This document shows positions 11,482 to 24,509 of a stretch of 33,219 nucleotides of DNA, piece after piece. Origin of the DNA: Steroidobacteraceae bacterium. GTDB taxonomy: Bacteria > Pseudomonadota > Gammaproteobacteria > Steroidobacterales > Steroidobacteraceae. Position 1 is the stretch's first letter. Each line of letters begins with the position of its first letter. The notes under the pieces are model-generated. The model was not told the DNA's origin. It worked only from the letters and a program-made list of their open reading frames with translations, and made no database searches. Where the stretch lies: assembly GCA_027456085.1 (NCBI GenBank), contig DAIDVO010000173.1, forward strand, positions 1 through 33,219, given 5' to 3'. The position numbers and the translations under genes were made by a program.

Positions 11482-11956
11482 TGCCGAGGGGGGCCGCGAG
11501 GACTTCGCGCAGGACCTTCGCGTGGTTTCTTTGCGCGTCCTTCGCCGCATAAAGCAACGTGACGCGCCGCTCCGCCGCATGCTTGCGCAGCGCATTCAGC
11601 GACGCGCTCTGCGTGCGTAGTTCAAGGCGGTAACGCCGGCAAAATTCGCTCCAGCGCTCCATGTCCTCGTGCAACCACCCGCGCAGCCGGGTGCTCGGCG
11701 CCAATTCGCGCGCCCAGTGATCGAGTGCGGCCTGGCCCTTGCGGACGCCGCGCGGCCACAGCCGATCCACGAGAACCCGGTATCCATCGGCGGGATTTGG
11801 CGGCTCGTAAATCCGCTTGGTATAAATGCCGGGGTCGGCGACGCCGACGTAGTCGGCGCCGAGCTCCGCCAGGTAGCAGGGCGGCGAGCTGCATTCGATC
11901 GGCTGAGGCGCATCCTGTCGTGCTGCGACCGCCTTGCGCTTGCGTGGGGCCGGCAT
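11465..11956 (-). CDS. DUF488-family protein
   Basis: Start MPAPRKRKAV at 11956. GIYTKRIYEPPNPADGYRVLVDRLWPRGVRKGQAALDHWARELAPSTRLRGWLHED...WSEFCRRYRLEL...VTLLYAAKDAQRNHAKVL. 17-bp convergent overlap with the aldehyde dehydrogenase. Confidence 0.88.
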   Translation of the reverse strand: MPAPRKRKAVAARQDAPQPIECSSPPCYLAELGADYVGVADPGIYTKRIYEPPNPADGYRVLVDRLWPRGVRKGQAALDHWARELAPSTRLRGWLHEDMERWSEFCRRYRLELRTQSASLNALRKHAAERRVTLLYAAKDAQRNHAKVLREVLAAPLGINPRY

Positions 11957-12102
11957 CGCGTGAATCCTCCGGTTGCGACCAAATTGAGATTGCAACATCG
12001 GCCCCGCCGGTGCAACTTAGATCGCGGCTATGCGTGCACCCATCCCACCAGCTGCGCCGGGCGCCGGGGCCGCTCACCGGCAGGGCCGGGGAGCGGGCTG
12101 AC

Positions 12103-14712
12103 GTGTCCAACGAGCCCAATGCTCAGTACCGCGCGCAGCTGATCGAACTCGCGGCGCTGGATGTCGAGGAGGTGGCGAGGCGGCTATCCTGCGGTCTACT
12201 GGGGCTCGCGGACGGCCAAGCGCGGGAGCGCCTGCAGAGCTTCGGCCCCAATTCCATCGCGCAACAGGTCGTTCGAGGAATCCCGCTGCAGCTGCTGCTG
12301 AAATTGCGCAATCCGCTGAACATCCTGCTTCTGGCGCTGGCGGTCGTCTCGCTGGCCACGGGCAACATCGAGTCGGCAAGCATAATTTCCTTGATGGTGA
12401 TCCTCAGCGTCTCGCTTGCGCTCGTGCAGGAGCGCCGCTCGAACCGGGCGGCCGCCGATCTGCGGGCGATGGTCCACACCACGGCGACCGTCGTGCGCCG
12501 CGGCTTTGCCGCCGGCGCGGATCTGCCGCCTGTGCCGCGCGAGATCCCGCTCGCCGAGCTCGTGCCCGGCGACCTCATCCATCTGTCGGCCGGCGACATG
12601 GTGCCGGCGGATGTCCGGCTGCTCTCGGCGAAGGATTTGTTCGTCAATCAGGCATCGCTGACCGGCGAAGCCATGCCGGCATCGAAGTATCCGCTGGTCG
12701 AACCGGCGGGGACGGACTGTCTGCAACTGCGCAACACCTGCTTCATGGGCACCAGCGTCTCCAGCGGCGCGGCCACGGCGCTCGTGATCCATACCGGTTC
12801 GCGGGCGGTGTTTGGCGGCATCGCCGGCGTCATCGCCGGCGAGCGCTCGTTGACGAGCTTCGATAGGGGCATCACGCGGTTCACCTGGCTGATGATTCGC
12901 TTCATCGCCGTCATGGTGCCGGTCGTTTTTATCGTCAACGGCCTAACCAAGGGCGACTGGCTCGAGGCCCTGCTCTTCGCCATGGCGGTGGCGGTGGGCC
13001 TGACCCCCGAGATGCTGCCCATGCTCGTGACCGTCAACCTGAGCAAAGGCGCGCTGGCGATGTCGCGCAAGAAGGTGATCGTCAAGCGCCTGAACTCGAT
13101 CCAGAACTTCGGCGCGATGGACGTGTTATGCACGGACAAAACGGGCACGCTGACGCAGGATCGAATCATCCTCGAAAAGCATATCGACCTGGCGGGCAAG
13201 GAGAGCGACAAGGTCCTGGATTATGCATACCTCAACAGTTACTACCAGTCCGGCTTGAAGAACCTGCTGGACGTCGCCGTGTTGAAGTACACGGAGGTGC
13301 ACGAGAAGCTGCATTCGGCGGGCAACTTCCGCAAAGTCGACGAGATTCCGTTCGACTTCATGCGCCGCCGCATGTCGGTCATTGTCGAGAGGCAGGACGA
13401 GCGGCTCCTCATCTGCAAGGGCGCGGTGGAGGAGGTCTTCAGCGTCTGCGCGACGGGAGAGGTCGATGCGCTGCCGTTTGCGCTGGACGCGAGCCATCTC
13501 GAAGCACTGCAAGTCCAGACGAGGAGCCTGAACGAAGATGGATTTCGGGTGATCTCGATCGCCTACAAACGCATTGATGCCGGCGCGACGAACTTCTCGG
13601 TAGACGACGAAGCGGGCCTCACGCTGCTCGGCTACATCGCGTTCCTCGATCCGCCCAAGGACAGCGTGCGCGAGGCGCTCACGATGTTGTCGAGGCACGG
13701 CATCAGCGTCAAGATCCTCACCGGCGACAACGAGATCGTCACGCGCAAGGTTTGCAAGGATGTCGGGCTGCGGGTGGACCGGGTGGTGCTCGGCCACGAT
13801 CTGGAGAGTCTGGGACCCGAGGAGTTCAGTGCGGTCGCCGAGTCCGGCCAGATCTTCGCGAAGCTGTCGCCGACGCAAAAAGCGCAGGTGATCGAGGCGC
13901 TGCACCGGCGCGGCCGCGTGGTCGGCTATCTCGGCGACGGCATCAACGATGCACCGGCGCTCAAGGCGGCCGACGTAGGCATCTCGGTCGACACCGCCGT
14001 GGATATCGCGAAGGAGTCGGCGGACATCGTGTTGCTGGAAAAGAGCCTTCTGGTCCTCGATGACGGCGTGATCGAGGGGCGCAAGGTGTTCGGCAATATA
14101 ATCAAATACATCCGCATGGGCGCGAGCTCGAACTTCGGCAACATGTTCAGCGTGCTCGGCGCGAGTGCGTGGTTGCCGTTCCTGCCGATGGCACCGATTC
14201 AGATCCTGACCAACAACCTGTTGTACGATTTCTCGCAGACGGCGATTCCCACCGACAACATCGATCCGGATTACCTGGACAGGCCGCGGCGCTGGGAGAT
14301 CAAGAATATCGCGCGTTTCATGCTGTTCATCGGCCCGATCAGTTCGATCTTCGACTACGCGACCTACTGCACCATGTACTTCCTCTACGATGCGAGAACG
14401 CCGGACAAGGCGGCCCTGTTCCAAACCGGCTGGTTCGTGGAGTCGCTGCTCTCGCAGACGATGATCATCCACGTCATTCGTACGTCGCGGATCCCGTTCG
14501 TCCAGAGCCGGGCCAGCACGCCGCTCATTCTGACGAGCCTCGTGATCTGTCTCGCCGGCGCCTATCTGCCATACTCGCCGCTCGCTACGCCGCTCGGATT
14601 CGTGCCTCTGCCCACGACCTACTGGCCGATCCTGGCGGCGATGCTCGCAGTCTACCTGGTGCTCACGCACCTCATGAGGAGGTGGTTCCAGCGCGTCTTC
14701 GGCGTGAGCTAG
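12103..14712 (+). CDS. mgtA: Magnesium-translocating P-type ATPase (MgtA/MgtB family)
   Basis: GTG start [138 protein letters not shown] typical of P3B Mg2+ ATPases. The 11725 start in the track is an upstream overextension. Confidence 0.93.
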   Translation: MSNEPNAQYRAQLIELAALDVEEVARRLSCGLLGLADGQARERLQSFGPNSIAQQVVRGIPLQLLLKLRNPLNILLLALAVVSLATGNIESASIISLMVILSVSLALVQERRSNRAAADLRAMVHTTATVVRRGFAAGADLPPVPREIPLAELVPGDLIHLSAGDMVPADVRLLSAKDLFVNQASLTGEAMPASKYPLVEPAGTDCLQLRNTCFMGTSVSSGAATALVIHTGSRAVFGGIAGVIAGERSLTSFDRGITRFTWLMIRFIAVMVPVVFIVNGLTKGDWLEALLFAMAVAVGLTPEMLPMLVTVNLSKGALAMSRKKVIVKRLNSIQNFGAMDVLCTDKTGTLTQDRIILEKHIDLAGKESDKVLDYAYLNSYYQSGLKNLLDVAVLKYTEVHEKLHSAGNFRKVDEIPFDFMRRRMSVIVERQDERLLICKGAVEEVFSVCATGEVDALPFALDASHLEALQVQTRSLNEDGFRVISIAYKRIDAGATNFSVDDEAGLTLLGYIAFLDPPKDSVREALTMLSRHGISVKILTGDNEIVTRKVCKDVGLRVDRVVLGHDLESLGPEEFSAVAESGQIFAKLSPTQKAQVIEALHRRGRVVGYLGDGINDAPALKAADVGISVDTAVDIAKESADIVLLEKSLLVLDDGVIEGRKVFGNIIKYIRMGASSNFGNMFSVLGASAWLPFLPMAPIQILTNNLLYDFSQTAIPTDNIDPDYLDRPRRWEIKNIARFMLFIGPISSIFDYATYCTMYFLYDARTPDKAALFQTGWFVESLLSQTMIIHVIRTSRIPFVQSRASTPLILTSLVICLAGAYLPYSPLATPLGFVPLPTTYWPILAAMLAVYLVLTHLMRRWFQRVFGVS

Positions 14713-14847: not shown

Positions 14848-16122
14848 GTGGATTTGAATTTCTTTGCGCGACTCTACTATCGACACCGCAAGCTGTGGAA
14901 GGCCGTGCGGCTGTACCTGGTCATCGCCGGCCCGGGAATCGTCGTCATGGTCGCAGACAACGACGCCGGCGGGATCACGACCTACGCGGCGACCGGCGCC
15001 AAATACGGCTATCACCTGATCTGGTTCCTGCTGCTGCTGATTCCGGTCGCCTATTACGTCCAGGAGATGACGGTGCGCCTCGGCGCCGTCACCAAGCGCG
15101 GCCACGCGGAAGCTATTTTCGACGGCTTCGGCGCGTTCTGGGGTTGGTTCTCATTGCTCGATCTGATGCTCGTCGATTGGCTGACGCTGGTCACCGAATT
15201 CGTCGGAATGACCGCGGCCCTGTCGATTTTCGGTGTGCCTCCGTGGCTGACGGTTGCCGCGGTCATCGTGCTGATGGCCATCATCGTGCTGCATGGCCGC
15301 TACTGGACCTTCGAGAAGCTGTCGCTGTTGTTCTGCGCCTTGAACCTGATCTACATTCCGGGCGCGTTCCTCGTACACCCGTCGGTCCGCGACATATTGC
15401 GCCAGGGCCTGATTCCGAACTTCGCCGGGGGCTTCAACGGCCAGATGTTCTTCTTCCTGATGGCCAATATCGGCACGACGATCGCTCCGTGGATGCTGTT
15501 CTTCCAGCAAAGCGCGGTCGTCGACAAGGGGATGCTGGAAAAGGACATCCCATGGGGACGGTTCGACACGCTGCTCGGTTCGTTCGTCACGGTGATCGTC
15601 GCGGTCTTCATCGTCGTCGTGACCGGAACCGTGCTGCACGGCGTGGACATCGACAGCGCCGCCCAGGCGGCGCAGGAACTGATGAAGACCGATCGCTATG
15701 TCGGCACGTTTCTCGCGATCGGCCTGTTCGACGCCGGACTTCTCGGGGCGATCTGCATCTCGCTCGCAAGTTCCTGGGCGTTCGGCGAGATCTTCGGTTG
15801 GGCGCACTCGCTGAATACGAAGATCCGGCAGGCGCCGTGGTTCTATGCGACTTACTTCTTCACGCTCGTGACCGCCGGCCTCGTCGTGCTGATCCCGCAC
15901 GCGCCGCTCGTCCTGATCACGCTGTTCGTGCAGGTGATCGCGGTCACGCTGCTGCCCGCGGCCCTGGTATTTCTGATCCTGCTGCTCAACGACCGTGCGA
16001 CGATGGGGGCCTACTGCAATACGGTCACGCAGAACGTGATCGGCGGCTTCATCGTCACCGCGATCGTCGTCCTCTCGACCCTGTACGGCATCACCGTGAT
16101 GTTCCCCAATCTATTCACGTAG
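14848..16122 (+). CDS. Divergent Nramp-family divalent metal transporter (possibly Nramp-related Mg2+ transporter type)
   Basis: GTG start. Multi-TM: YLVIAGPGIVVMVADNDAGGITTYAATGAKYGYHLIWFLLLLIPVAYYVQEMTVRLGAVTKRG is typical Nramp TM1-TM2, but the DPGN and MPH motifs are absent. Confidence 0.85.
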   Translation: MDLNFFARLYYRHRKLWKAVRLYLVIAGPGIVVMVADNDAGGITTYAATGAKYGYHLIWFLLLLIPVAYYVQEMTVRLGAVTKRGHAEAIFDGFGAFWGWFSLLDLMLVDWLTLVTEFVGMTAALSIFGVPPWLTVAAVIVLMAIIVLHGRYWTFEKLSLLFCALNLIYIPGAFLVHPSVRDILRQGLIPNFAGGFNGQMFFFLMANIGTTIAPWMLFFQQSAVVDKGMLEKDIPWGRFDTLLGSFVTVIVAVFIVVVTGTVLHGVDIDSAAQAAQELMKTDRYVGTFLAIGLFDAGLLGAICISLASSWAFGEIFGWAHSLNTKIRQAPWFYATYFFTLVTAGLVVLIPHAPLVLITLFVQVIAVTLLPAALVFLILLLNDRATMGAYCNTVTQNVIGGFIVTAIVVLSTLYGITVMFPNLFT

Positions 16123-16136
16123 GCCGCGAGATACCC

Positions 16137-16313
16137 ATGAATGCATACCGCAATTTCTTTTCGAAAATCACCGAGATCAATGCGAGGTACGGCAAGTCGC
16201 GCATTGAAATGTCCGGCGCGGTACGCTTCTCGCTGATGGCGCTGCGCGTGTATCTGATCGCGCTAGTGGCCTTGATGATCTACAAGTTCGTGCAAATCGC
16301 CGTGCAGGGGTAG
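16137..16313 (+). CDS. 58-aa predicted single-TM small protein
   Basis: ATG at 16137, TAG at 16311-16313: MNAYRNFFSKITEINARYGKSRIEMSGAVRFSLMALRVYLIALVALMIYKFVQIAVQG. Sits 14 bp after the Nramp-like stop and 3 bp before the next start. C-terminal hydrophobic helix. In the track it is only the tail of an out-of-frame ORF (14769..16313). Confidence 0.7.
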   Translation: MNAYRNFFSKITEINARYGKSRIEMSGAVRFSLMALRVYLIALVALMIYKFVQIAVQG

Positions 16314-16316
16314 GCC

Positions 16317-17570
16317 GTGGTCACCGTGCTGGAACACGAGTTCTTCCTCGGCGAAATCCTCGACCGGCGGGTATTCGTGAAGAAACGCCGGATCGGCCGC
16401 CTGAGCGATCTGGCGATCGTCGAGACCGGCAAGCTCCCCGAAGTCACGCATATAGTCGTCACGCGGCCCTACGGCTATCCCGCGCTGACGATTCCCTGGG
16501 AGCGGGTGGTGCTGATCTCCAATCACGAGATCGTGCTCGACATCGGCGAGGAGGCGACGGCGCAATTCGAGCACGCGCCGCAGGAAAATCTTATCCTTCT
16601 CCACGACCACATACTCGACAAGAAGATACTCGATATGGACGACCACGAAGTCGAGGTCGTCTACGACGTCAAGCTCGCGTTCCAAAACGGCAAGCTATAC
16701 GCCGCCGAGGTGGACTTCAGCCGCTATCGGGCGCTGCGCCGTCTGGGGCTTCACAAGCTGGCAAAGCTGCTCACGGATAGGAACCAGGAGAACCGAGTCT
16801 CCTGGCTGTACGTACAGCCGCTACCCGAGCATCTCGGCAGTTTCGCCGGCAACATCAAGCTCAAGGTGCAGAAGGAGACGCTCAGCGAGATCCATCCGGT
16901 GGATCTCGCCGACATTCTCGAAGAGCTCGAGGGCGGACAGCGGGTCGCGCTGTTCAATGCGCTGGAAACCGAGCATGCGTCGGACACGCTCGAAGAAGTC
17001 GAGCCGCGGGTACAGCGTGAGTTGATTCACGCTATCGAGAAGGAGCGTGCGGCGGTGTTGATCAACGACATGACCCCCGCGCAGGCGGCGGACATCCTGG
17101 CGATTCTGCCGCGCGACGAGGCCAACGCGATCCTGCGGCTCATAGACCGGGACAAGTCATCGAAGGTCGCGCACATCATCGGGCAGCACGACGAACAAAT
17201 CCTCCACTACGGCTCTGCCGACGTGATCCGCTTGCCGCCGTCCGCGCTGGCCGAGGATGTGCTGGACCGCTACCGCGAAATCGCCAAGGACAAGAACGTC
17301 GTCATGTACATTTATGTGGTCGACCCGGAAGGAGTGCTCAAGGGCGTCGTCGACATACGCGAGATCGTCGCGGCCGAGCCCGGGCAAAAGCTCGGCGACA
17401 TCATGACCGAGCACGTCATCGGGCTGCCGAAGAACGCGACTCTGCGGGACGCGGCGATGCTGTTCGAACGATACAATTTTCGCGCATTGCCGATCACCGA
17501 CGACAACGACCACCTTCTCGGCGCGGTGTCGTCGCACGATATCCGCAGCATACGACCGCGGCTCGGGTAG
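16317..17570 (+). CDS. Soluble MgtE N-terminal-domain + CBS-pair protein lacking the MgtE transmembrane domain; N-terminal PRC-barrel-like region
   Basis: GTG start. N-terminal [33 protein letters not shown]; MgtE_N-like [76 protein letters not shown] repeats [18 protein letters not shown]...[51 protein letters not shown]; ends without TM segments. Confidence 0.88.
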
Positions 17571-17597
17571 CGCCGCCGCGCAGCGCTTGGGCGGCGC
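17570..17597. terminator. Candidate bidirectional hairpin between convergent genes
   Basis: GCGCCGCC (17570-17577) / GGCGGCGC (17590-17597), 12-nt loop, between the convergent MgtE-like and ftsH stops. No U-tract, so only tentative. Confidence 0.3.
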
Positions 17598-17608
17598 CGG
17601 ATCCAGGC

Positions 17609-19520
17609 CTATCGGGCCGGCGCGGGCGGGTTCTCGGCCTGTTCGCGCAGCAGGCGCACGACCTCGTCCCGATCCATGACTTCCCTTTCCAGCAGCGCGG
17701 CCGCCAACGCGTCGAGGCCGGGCCGCCGCGCCGCCAGAACCTCGCGGGCGCGTCGCTGCGCCTCCTCGATCAGCGCGCGCACTTCGGCATCGATGAGACG
17801 CGCCGTATCCTCGCTGTAATTGCGCTCCTCCTCGCCGGAGACGCCGAGATAGACCAGTTGTTGGCGCCGACCATATGTCAGTGGTCCGAGCTTCTCGCTC
17901 ATGCCCATTTGCGTGACCATGCTGCGGGCGATCTCGCTCGCGTGCTCCAGATCGTTCTGCGCGCCGCTCGAGACCTCGCCGAAGGTCATCTGCTCGGCGG
18001 CGCGGCCGCCGAGCAGGATCGCGAGCTGGTCCTTGAATTGATTTTCGGTGGCAAGGAATTTCTCCTCGACCGGGAGCTGCAGCGTATAGCCGAGCGCCGC
18101 CATCCCGTGCGGAATGATGGATACCTTGTGAAGCGGCTCGCCGGTCGGCACATTGAGCGCGACCAAGGTGTGGCCCGACTCGTGCACGGCGACGCGGTGC
18201 TTTTCCGCCGCGTTCAATACGCGGTGCTTCTTTTCCGGTCCGGCGATGATGCGATCGATGGCTTCCTCGAAATCGGCCATCATGACCGCCGCGTGTCCAT
18301 GCCGCACCGCGCGGATCGCCGCCTCGTTCGCGACATTCGCGAGATCCGCTCCGACGAAACCGGGCGTACGCTGCGCGACCACGCGCAGATCGACCTCCGG
18401 GCCTAGCTTCATGCGGCGGGTGTGCAGGCGCAATATCGCCGTGCGATCGGTCAGATCCGGCTTGTCGACGACGATCTGCCGATCGAACCGGCCCGCGCGC
18501 AGCAAGGCCTTGTCGAGAATTTCGGGCCGATTGGTCGCGGCCATCACGACGACGCCGGTGGACGGGTCGAAGCCGTCCATCTCCGACAAGAGCTGATTCA
18601 ACGTCTGTTCGCGCTCGTCGTGCCCCCCCCAGCCGCGGACCGATGCCGCGAGCGCCGCCGACGGCGTCCAACTCGTCGATGAAAATGATGCAAGGCGCCT
18701 TCTGCCGCGCCTGTTCGAACAGTTCGCGCACGCGCGCCGCTCCCACGCCGACGAACAGCTCGATGAACTCCGAACCGCTGATGCTGAAGAACGGCACGCC
18801 GGATTCGCCGGCAACGGCCCGCGCCAGCAATGTCTTGCCGGTGCCCGGCGGTCCGACGAGAAGCGCACCCTTGAGCATGTGCCCGCCCAGGCTCTGAATG
18901 CGCGTTGGATCCTTGAGAAAATCGATGACTTCCTTCAGCTCCTCCTTGGCTTCCTCGGCCCCGGCGACGTCCTGGAAAGTCACTCGAACGCCCGTTTCCG
19001 CATGGATGTGGATGCGGTTGGCGCCGAGATTGAGCAAGCCGCGATTGCCGCTGCGCGCCGCGAACAAGTTCCACACCAGGAACACGGCGCCGAACGGCAA
19101 TACCCAATTCAGCAGAAAATTCAGCAGCCAATGCGTCTGATGCACGACCGAGAACTTGACGGCGTGCGCGGCGAGCGACTGCGCCAACGCATCGTCGTCC
19201 GGGCGTTCGGTGATGAATTCCGCGGGTCGATGCGTCTTCGGATCGGTCACGGTCAAGGCGCCGCTGATCATTTGATCGCCGAGCGTCGCCTCTTTGACCT
19301 CGCCGCGGTTCAAGTGCTGGAGAAACTCGCTGTAGGGAATCTGCACCTGGGCCGAGTGCTGCGCCGTCTCCCAGAACCACATCGATCCCAGCATGGCGAT
19401 CAGATAGATCCACCAGAGGTTCTGCGGCTGCTGCCAGAACCGCCGCGGTGCGCGCTTGTTGATCTCCAGTTCCGGCTTCTTCGATCCGATGCCGAGTGCG
19501 GACTTGCGTACGTCAACCAC
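17609..19520 (-). CDS. ftsH: ATP-dependent zinc metalloprotease FtsH, interrupted by an apparent frameshift near 18623-18630
   Basis: The N-terminal part is in one frame (ORF 17157..19520: [72 protein letters not shown]). The rest is in another frame (ORF 17609..18868: [51 protein letters not shown]..., HESGHTLVA zinc motif). The switch falls at a C8 tract (G8 on the coding strand). Confidence 0.9.
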
Positions 19521-22019: not shown

Positions 22020-24371
22020 CTACAAGCGCAGGCGGCGCAGGCGCAATGCGTTGCTGACCACCGAGACCGAACTCAAGCTCATCGCCGCCGCCGCCAGTGC
22101 CGGAGACAGCAGCACGCCGAACATTGGATACAGTACGCCGGCCGCGATCGGAATGCCCACGCTGTTGTAAAGGAAGGCGAAAAACAGGTTCTGGCGAATA
22201 TTGCGCACCGCGGCCTGGGAAAGCGCGCGAGCGCGCAATATCGCGGTCAGATCGCCCTTGACGAGCGTCACCTGCGCGCTCTCCATCGCGATATCGGTGC
22301 CGCTGCCCATGGCGATGCCTACGTCCGCCGCCGCGAGCGCCGGTGCGTCGTTGATGCCGTCGCCGGCCATGGCCACGCGCCGGCCCCGTGCTTTGAGTTC
22401 GCGCACCACACGCGCCTTGTCGGCCGGCGAAACCTCGGCGTGCACGACATCGATGCCCAGTGATTGCGCCACCGCCGCCGCCGTGGTGCCATTATCCCCG
22501 GTCAGCATGACGATGCGCAGACCGGCCGCGCGCAATCCGCGCAGTGCTTCGGGCGTGCTGGGCTTGATGCGGTCGGCGACCGCGACCAGCGCGGCCAGGG
22601 AGCCGTCGGCGGCGAGGAACATCACGGTCGCGCCGCCGTTGCGCAGCGCCTCCGCGCGCTGCTCGGCGGCCGCGTCCACGTTCACCCCCAAGTCGCGCAT
22701 CAGCGCGACGTTGCCGAGCGCCGCGGCGCGGCCGAGTACCCGCCCGCGCACGCCGCGGCCGGTCGGCGCGGCGAAATCTTCGACCGGTGCGAGCCGGCTG
22801 GCGTCGGCGGCCGCGACGATCGCGCGCGCGAGCGGATGTTCGCTGGCGCGCTCCAGCGATGCCGCTAGGTTGAGCGCGGCGTCGCGGTCGAAAGCGCCGT
22901 ACGGCACCCCCTCGAGCAGGCTGGGCTTGCCTTCGGTCAGCGTGCCGGTCTTGTCCACCACGAGAGTATCGACTTCGCGCAAGGCCTCGATCGCCGCGGC
23001 GTTGCGAAACAGCACGCCGACCTGGGCGCCGCGGCCGGTGGCGACCATGATCGTGATCGGCGTCGCCAGGCCGAGCGCGCAGGGACAAGCGATGATGAGC
23101 ACCGACACGGCGGCGATCAATGCGTTGGCGTAGCGCGGATCGGCACCCATGAGCGCCCACGCGGCGAACGCGAGCATGGCCACAGCGACGACGGTGGGCA
23201 CGAACCAAGCGGCGACGCGGTCCGCGACGCGCTGCAGCGGCGCCTTACTGCGCTGCGCTTCGGCGACGAGCGCGACGATCTGCGCAAGCAGAGTTTCGGC
23301 GCCTACTTTTTCGGCGCGCATCAGCACGCTGCCGGTCTGGTTGAGCGTGGCGCCGGTGATCCGATCGCCCGGGGCCTTGTCCACCGGCATCGGTTCGCCC
23401 GTCAGCATCGACTCATCGACGCTGCTGGCGCCTTCCAGCACGAAACCGTCGACGGGAATCTTCTCGCCGGGACGCACCCGTAGGCGGTCCCCAGGCTGCA
23501 CCCGCTCGAGCGGCACCTCGGTCTCGCCGCCGTCGGCGCCGACGCGATGCGCGATCTTGGGTGCGAGGCCGAGCAGCGCCCTCAGCGCCGCACCGGTGCG
23601 CCGGCGCGCACGCAGCTCGAGGAAATCTCCGAGCAGCACGAGGGTGACGATCACCGCCGCTGCCTCGAAATACACGGCGACGTTACCGCCGGCCGCGCGG
23701 AAAGACGGTGGAAACCATGCCGGCCGCGCGAATGCGATCACGCTGTAGCTCCAGGCAACGCCGGTGCCGAGCGCGATCAGCGTGTACATGTTCGGCGACC
23801 ACGGCCGCAGCGATCGCCAGCCGCGCGCAAAGAAGTCGGCGCCGCCCCAGAGCACCACGACGCTCGCGAGCAGCGCCTCGATCCAGGCGGCGGCGCGGTT
23901 CCAGGGCGCCGGCAGGCGCAGGCCGAACAGGTGCGGGACCATCGCCACCACGAGCACCGGCAGGCTGAGTGCGGCGCAGATCCAGAACCTGCGCGCCAAG
24001 CGCGAAAGCTCGCCGCCGTCGTCCTCATCGAGGCTGGGCAGCAGCGGTTCGAGCGCCATGCCGCACTTCGGACAGCTGCCGGGACGATCCCGGCGCACCT
24101 CAGGGTGCATCGGACAAGTCCAGATTGCACCGGTCGCGGCGGGCGCCGCTGGTGACGCGGGCGCCGGCGCGGGGTCGAGATAGCGCGCGGGACCTGCGTC
24201 GAATTTTTGCTTGCAGCCCTGATTGCAGAAGAAATAGGTCGCGCCGGTGTATTCGCTGCGATATTTGGCGGTGGCCGGATCGACCCGCATCCCGCAGACC
24301 GGGTCGACCGCCGATTTCGAATCGGCTGCCATCGCGCGGTGGCCGCCGTCGCAGTGCGTATGCGTGCTCAT
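22020..24371 (-). CDS. Copper-type heavy-metal-translocating P1B ATPase with N-terminal YHS and CPMHP/CPKCGM metal-binding domains
   Basis: [11 protein letters not shown] start. [136 protein letters not shown]. Confidence 0.95.
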
Positions 24372-24509
24372 GTCAACTCCGCGGCGCCCCGCGCCGCCCA
24401 ACATGGGATGCGCGTCGGGCTAAAGGGCGCCGAGCAGAGAGATTAAAGCACTTTCACGCGAACGGGCATATATCGCAGGCCGGTTGCGGTGCCGCGCTCG
24501 CGGTCGTAC

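Follow-up and report, generated by a model that had tools for sequence, protein, structure and literature searches.

A conserved NRMT transporter cassette with a candidate single-helix subunit and a detached MgtE-like sensor in a Steroidobacteraceae bacterium

In the window, by which we mean the whole stretch of 33,219 nucleotides analysed (contig C173 of a 2.46-Mb assembly, 81% complete), three tightly packed genes encode a transporter, a small membrane protein and a soluble sensor-like protein. Taken as a whole, they are best explained, at a probability of about 0.6, as an uptake cassette for Mg2+ (possibly Mg2+/Mn2+), consisting of an NRMT permease, a single-transmembrane (TM) accessory subunit and a sensor protein. 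The cassette is real and conserved and the small subunit is well supported as a partner of the transporter; the mechanism is a proposal. The initial annotation had read the locus as a Mg2+ transport cassette in which a small protein couples a detached sensor to an Nramp-like permease. The cassette and the detached sensor stood, and the transporter falls on the NRMT (Mg2+-type) side of its family; the coupling role of the small protein was not supported.

Organization of the locus and type of the transporter

The features discussed here are the following:

11725..14712, + strand: ORF of an MgtA-type Mg2+ P-type ATPase (TIGR01524, 1154 bits, cut-off 610.75), 135 bp upstream of the trio
14848..16122, + strand: nrmT-like gene for an NRMT-clade (SLC11/Nramp-related) divalent cation transporter with 11 predicted TM helices
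16137..16313, + strand: gene for a 58-aa single-TM protein, proposed as an NRMT accessory subunit from its coding constraint and its linkage to NRMT
16317..17570, + strand: gene for a soluble PRC-MgtE_N-CBS-CBS protein of 417 aa (the sensor), with Pfam MgtE_N and CBS domains, a homologue of the cytosolic half of MgtE

The gaps within the trio are 14 bp between the transporter gene and the 58-aa ORF and 3 bp between this ORF and the sensor gene, as the initial annotation had given them. The true start of the transporter is probably TTG 14854 (MNFFARLYY...) and not GTG 14848, because its orthologues begin with MNFF. The MgtA-type ATPase precedes the trio on the same strand, again as first described, and the homologous part of its ORF starts near residue 131-144. 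MgtA-like ATPases also adjoin the trio at three other loci (L067, L087 and L112), a recurrence that comprises a Chlorobium, a Bacteroidetes and a Polaromonas genome. None was found in the fetched flanks of five same-genus trio loci, some of these flanks being short, and MgtA was on this account rejected as a constant part of the cassette.

Downstream of the trio, an FtsH-like gene (17609-19520, - strand) is split between two reading frames, with a shift near 18640. One frame holds the FtsH extracellular domain and the first part of the AAA domain, and the other holds the remaining AAA part and the M41 peptidase; the split may reflect either a genuine frameshift or a mistake in the assembly. 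Further downstream (22020-24404, - strand), some 4.4 kb from the trio, there is a P-ATPase of the heavy-metal type that carries YHS and HMBD metal-binding domains.

The transporter matches the Pfam Nramp family with E=6.5e-73. In phmmer searches its best solved relative was EleNRMT (7qia, E=1.2e-65), versus 1.7e-16 for the best canonical MntH. NRMTs are defined by DxxG in helix 1, TxxA/T in helix 6 and the loss of both proton-pathway histidines (EleNRMT study, PMC8806188). Aligned with EleNRMT, the window transporter keeps DxxG (D39..G42) and TxxA (T210..A213), and its helix-6b proton-pathway histidines are replaced by W215 and Q220 (W and N in EleNRMT), while the Glu of helix 3 (E117) and the Gln of helix 10 (Q362) are retained. 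Alanine takes the place of the methionine associated with transition metals, and transporters sharing the gene order of the window have the complete NRMT signature. By every sequence feature tested, the transporter is thus of the NRMT type and not an ordinary Mn/Fe Nramp. We therefore regard the first component of the cassette as an NRMT-clade permease that would work without proton coupling, as suggested by the signature together with the riboswitches and neighbouring genes described below.

The small protein and its linkage to NRMTs

The 58-aa protein has one predicted TM helix, a basic N-terminal segment and an LR.Y motif (L36, R37 and Y39) at the start of the helix, and gave no match in Pfam or NCBIfam up to E=0.1. 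Its ORF is of equal length in six genomes of the genus, with an excess of third-position changes and, among close pairs, dN of 0.02-0.07 versus dS of 0.31-0.68; it is coding and under purifying selection. Across the family, the arginine of LR.Y is present in 94 of 103 members, and the mean net charge before the helix is +2.9. From this basic segment and the LR.Y motif, the N-terminus is predicted to lie in the cytoplasm, and a model of a naturally fused protein (see below) gives an agreeing orientation. No description of the small membrane protein was found in the open-licence papers searched, and the subunit has apparently not been described before.

A scan of a genome collection with the transporter yielded 80 loci, to which plasmid and whole-genome loci were added. 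Five further genomes of the genus have the trio intact, and the neighbourhood check proposed in the initial annotation found it well beyond close relatives. The order NRMT-small-sensor (arrangement a) is represented by 53 transporter entries, including some duplicate loci, in 14 named bacterial and archaeal phyla, some of the archaeal and candidate-phylum cases being metagenome bins whose contigs could be mis-binned. In arrangement b, NRMT-sensor-small (11 entries from Myxococcota, Thermodesulfobacteriota, Acidobacteriota and a Sumerlaeota bin), the small protein is shortened to 36-48 aa. In arrangement c it is fused to the C-terminus of the NRMT: 15 entries, made up of Actinobacteria and three paralogues from the window's genus, are much extended at the C-terminus, and in 12 of these the small protein was matched (some matches being weak). 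Several fused tails are weak alone (E 0.01-1) and were accepted on position, length and LR.Y motif jointly, and the extensions of L225, L227 and L229 gave no scorable match. Arrangement e, NRMT-small with no adjoining sensor gene, has 24 entries, mostly from Bacillota and acidophiles. The trio is also carried by conjugative IncHI plasmids of Citrobacter freundii and Serratia marcescens (15001-17713 in both L052 and L053), where it adjoins an ArsR/SmtB regulator and a heavy-metal P-type ATPase and where the small ORF is unannotated in both records. Transporter identity between distant phyla is 65-88% for most of arrangement a, which together with plasmid carriage points to horizontal transfer. 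Among 299 sampled Pseudomonadota genomes, such a transporter was matched at E<=1e-120 in 12.

The ORFs that went into the wide HMM of the small family had been chosen by their position, with L075_3_665_m, a false ORF on the minus strand, and a single fused protein left out. For this reason, a separate 28-sequence model (A7) was run over 50 whole genomes as an independent test of specificity, many of the matched genomes lying outside the model. All 29 matches at E<0.08 were beside or inside an NRMT gene, either within ~200 bp of it, inside a fused NRMT, or, in the sole genome of arrangement b, at a distance of 1.3 kb. The remaining matches had E>=0.19, with just one of them at an NRMT (G042, E=0.93, in a fused NRMT). 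Furthermore, no small-protein neighbour was found at the other Nramp paralogues (L041-L051). In six whole genomes (G040, G045, G648, G649, G704 and G808) the small protein is beside or fused to an NRMT and no PRC-MgtE_N-CBS protein was found.

In a FastTree phylogeny of 130 transporters, with some long branches and open forks, the NRMTs bearing the small protein form one clade, sister to partner-less paralogues. The EleNRMT clade falls outside; the closeness of the window transporter to EleNRMT is qualified in this tree by paralogues that lack the full NRMT motif and yet branch nearer the window's clade. All labels together need 14 changes on this tree versus a shuffled mean of 79.6. The Nramp paralogues L041-L045, from the same genus or the same family, have DTD.GS helix-1 and GAVIMPW helix-6 motifs and form a clade of their own, and no partner genes were found for them. 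One Acidobacteriaceae genome (G043, locus L088; contigs C205, C259 and C167) has three NRMT types: one with small protein and sensor, one with the small protein and no sensor match on that contig, and one with the sensor alone.

As a stand-in for the three-protein complex, the natural fusion L123 was modelled as a single chain with AlphaFold2. In the resulting model (pTM 0.88), the 11 transporter helices are followed by a twelfth (446-485), a short helical linker and the small-protein helix (532-561); block-mean pLDDT is ~74-91 in these two helices, and the tail of the model rests on two fused sequences. Its fold is nearest to EleNRMT, and an SGLT1 chain was also a weak fold match. The free small protein would pack on the transporter as in the fusion, a binding suggested by the fusions together with the exclusive linkage. 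We accordingly propose as the second component a single-TM accessory subunit whose N-terminus would be cytoplasmic and which would pack against the permease, becoming its C-terminal helix in fused lineages.

The distribution across genomes bears directly on what the small protein does. Were it a linker coupling the MgtE_N-CBS sensor to the Nramp-like permease, as the initial annotation held, its position between both genes in the commonest arrangement and a basic N-terminal segment facing the cytosol would be readily understood. That role is nevertheless improbable and is disfavoured by the six genomes named above, which keep the small protein with an NRMT and no sensor found, and by the clade distribution, in which the whole EleNRMT/Clostridia clade has the sensor gene without the small protein. 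Since several whole genomes keep the small protein without the sensor, we read it as a subunit of the transporter and not as a coupler. Many single-TM small proteins stabilise their partners, and its size and simple helix would also fit a factor that only assists the assembly or stability of NRMT, without a role in transport. This is a possible but less favoured account, as permanent fusion in several lineages argues for a lasting structural role, with which stabilisation is still compatible. A spurious ORF in a chance gene order has virtually no probability: short length and the absence of database families are all that speak for it, and it is refuted by the coding constraint (dN much below dS), by length and motif conserved across phyla and by the exclusive location at NRMT loci in the 50-genome search. 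The small protein is thus very probably an accessory subunit of the transporter. A point against the proposed cassette is that EleNRMT moves Mg2+ in liposomes without partners (PMC8806188). We further consider it probable that this new single-TM subunit family defines a second large NRMT clade, spanning bacteria and archaea, in which the extra helix would be needed for assembly or transport and the sensor would be optional.

The sensor and the transported ion

In agreement with the initial annotation, the sensing module is a separate soluble protein next to an Nramp-fold transporter. It contains MgtE_N (2.6e-22, residues 192-289) and tandem CBS domains (6.5e-18) and ends at residue 417, directly after CBS2; there is no plug helix, and no MgtE channel domain was detected with Pfam. 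Its N-terminal ~170 residues are beta-rich; a PRC-barrel match was found in 42 of 45 family members, the match of the window sensor itself being just under the Pfam cut-off. The AlphaFold2 model of the sensor (pLDDT 82.7, pTM 0.43) had the MgtE cytosolic domain 2yvy as its top Foldseek match (E=1.5e-17).

The residues of the Mg4-Mg7 sites of MgtE have been assigned as E59, D91, D95, D226, D247 and D250 (PMC5882242). At these positions D95 and D247 are retained in the window sensor and E59 is replaced by Asp, and the protein has lost D91 (Ala) of Mg4 as well as D226 (Asn) and D250 (Ser) of Mg5; Clostridia-type sensor partners mostly keep D91, D95 and D247. Because just part of the MgtE sites is kept, Mg2+ sensing exactly as in MgtE is not assured. 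Two variants of the partner were seen elsewhere. At L230-L232 the protein adjoining the NRMT is shortened to 191-199 aa and has the N-terminal PRC-like part alone, without MgtE_N or CBS, and at L205 (2051-3350) the sensor is split into two genes that directly precede the NRMT, a situation also reported from C. acetobutylicum.

The pairing of transporter and sensor and the idea of feedback are not new. Shin et al., who named NrmT in 2014 (with Ca_c0685 of C. acetobutylicum as an example), noted that a homologue of the MgtE N-terminal domain is encoded beside most members and proposed feedback control; for a transporter from Acidobacterium capsulatum, co-expression of its MgtE fragment gave no better Mg2+ rescue (PMC4072509). 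By homology to MgtE, feedback by the sensor is probable in lineages that have one, and the third component, the cytosolic PRC-MgtE_N-CBS protein, would most likely read cytoplasmic Mg2+ or nucleotide state and down-regulate the permease. That the sensor gates the transporter of the window in particular stands at somewhat under even odds.

Mg2+ is likely the main substrate, as suggested by the ion-site signature, by M-boxes before transporters of arrangements b and e and by MgtA or MgtC neighbours. M-box Mg2+ riboswitches (Rfam) precede the NRMTs of these sister arrangements at L097, L099 and L104 and at L115, L116 and L118. M-boxes are a feature of part of the NRMTs and not of the whole family. 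Neither the window nor the 28 scanned loci of arrangement a gave an M-box match, and a riboswitch was thus discarded as evidence for Mg2+ at the window itself. MgtA or MgtC neighbours occur in the window and at L067, L087 and L112, as well as at L055 and L056.

Uptake of Mn2+ or of a different transition metal, with a sensor module that responds to this metal as has been suggested for A. capsulatum, is rather unlikely for the cassette, although several observations would suit such a system. The sensor-linked transporter of A. capsulatum mainly rescued Mn2+ uptake (PMC4072509), and EleNRMT also carries Mn2+ (PMC8806188). Moreover, the plasmid-borne trios adjoin an ArsR/SmtB regulator and a heavy-metal ATPase, and arrangement a is without M-boxes. 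Set against these are the methionine-to-alanine change within a complete NRMT signature, the MgtA/MgtC neighbours and the M-boxes of the sister arrangements. In addition, A. capsulatum may not represent the window's clade, because its published order of sensor before transporter is that of the clade without the small protein, to which its transporter may belong.

Significance and comparison with known systems

As bacterial Mg2+ importers, NRMTs have received little study, and earlier tests used the transporter alone or with an MgtE fragment only, leaving the role of the ancillary gene open. Should the present clade depend on a one-helix subunit that is passed over by annotation pipelines, this subunit ought to be part of complementation and structural work, and the natural fusions offer a ready single-chain construct. 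The small family would then provide a bacterial example of a single-helix subunit dedicated to a LeuT-fold transporter, and with the sensor split off, it could be tested directly whether a permease unrelated to MgtE comes under the control of an MgtE sensor.

A functional parallel to NRMT with its small protein is SGLT1-MAP17 (7yni, 7wmv), in which a single-TM accessory subunit accompanies a LeuT-fold transporter; it differs from the window cassette in that the sequences are unrelated, the transporter is an animal sugar/Na+ symporter and there is no cytosolic sensor protein. MgtS, MgtR and MntS of E. coli and Salmonella are, like the small protein, tiny proteins tied to Mg2+ or Mn2+ transporters; to our knowledge, none is known as a fusion to its target transporter. 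The MgtE channel (2yvy, 2zy9) shares MgtE_N, tandem CBS domains and a matching fold with the window sensor, which in contrast has no channel domain and no plug helix, carries an extra N-terminal PRC-barrel region and is missing several Mg2+ ligands. Closest to the window are the NRMTs Ca_c0685 and EleNRMT (PMC4072509, PMC8806188), which belong to the same family, have the same ion-site signature and are likewise encoded next door to a homologue of the MgtE cytosolic domain. Unlike the NRMTs of the EleNRMT clade, which have no small TM partner and whose sensor gene lies mostly upstream, the sister clade to which the window transporter belongs has the small partner.
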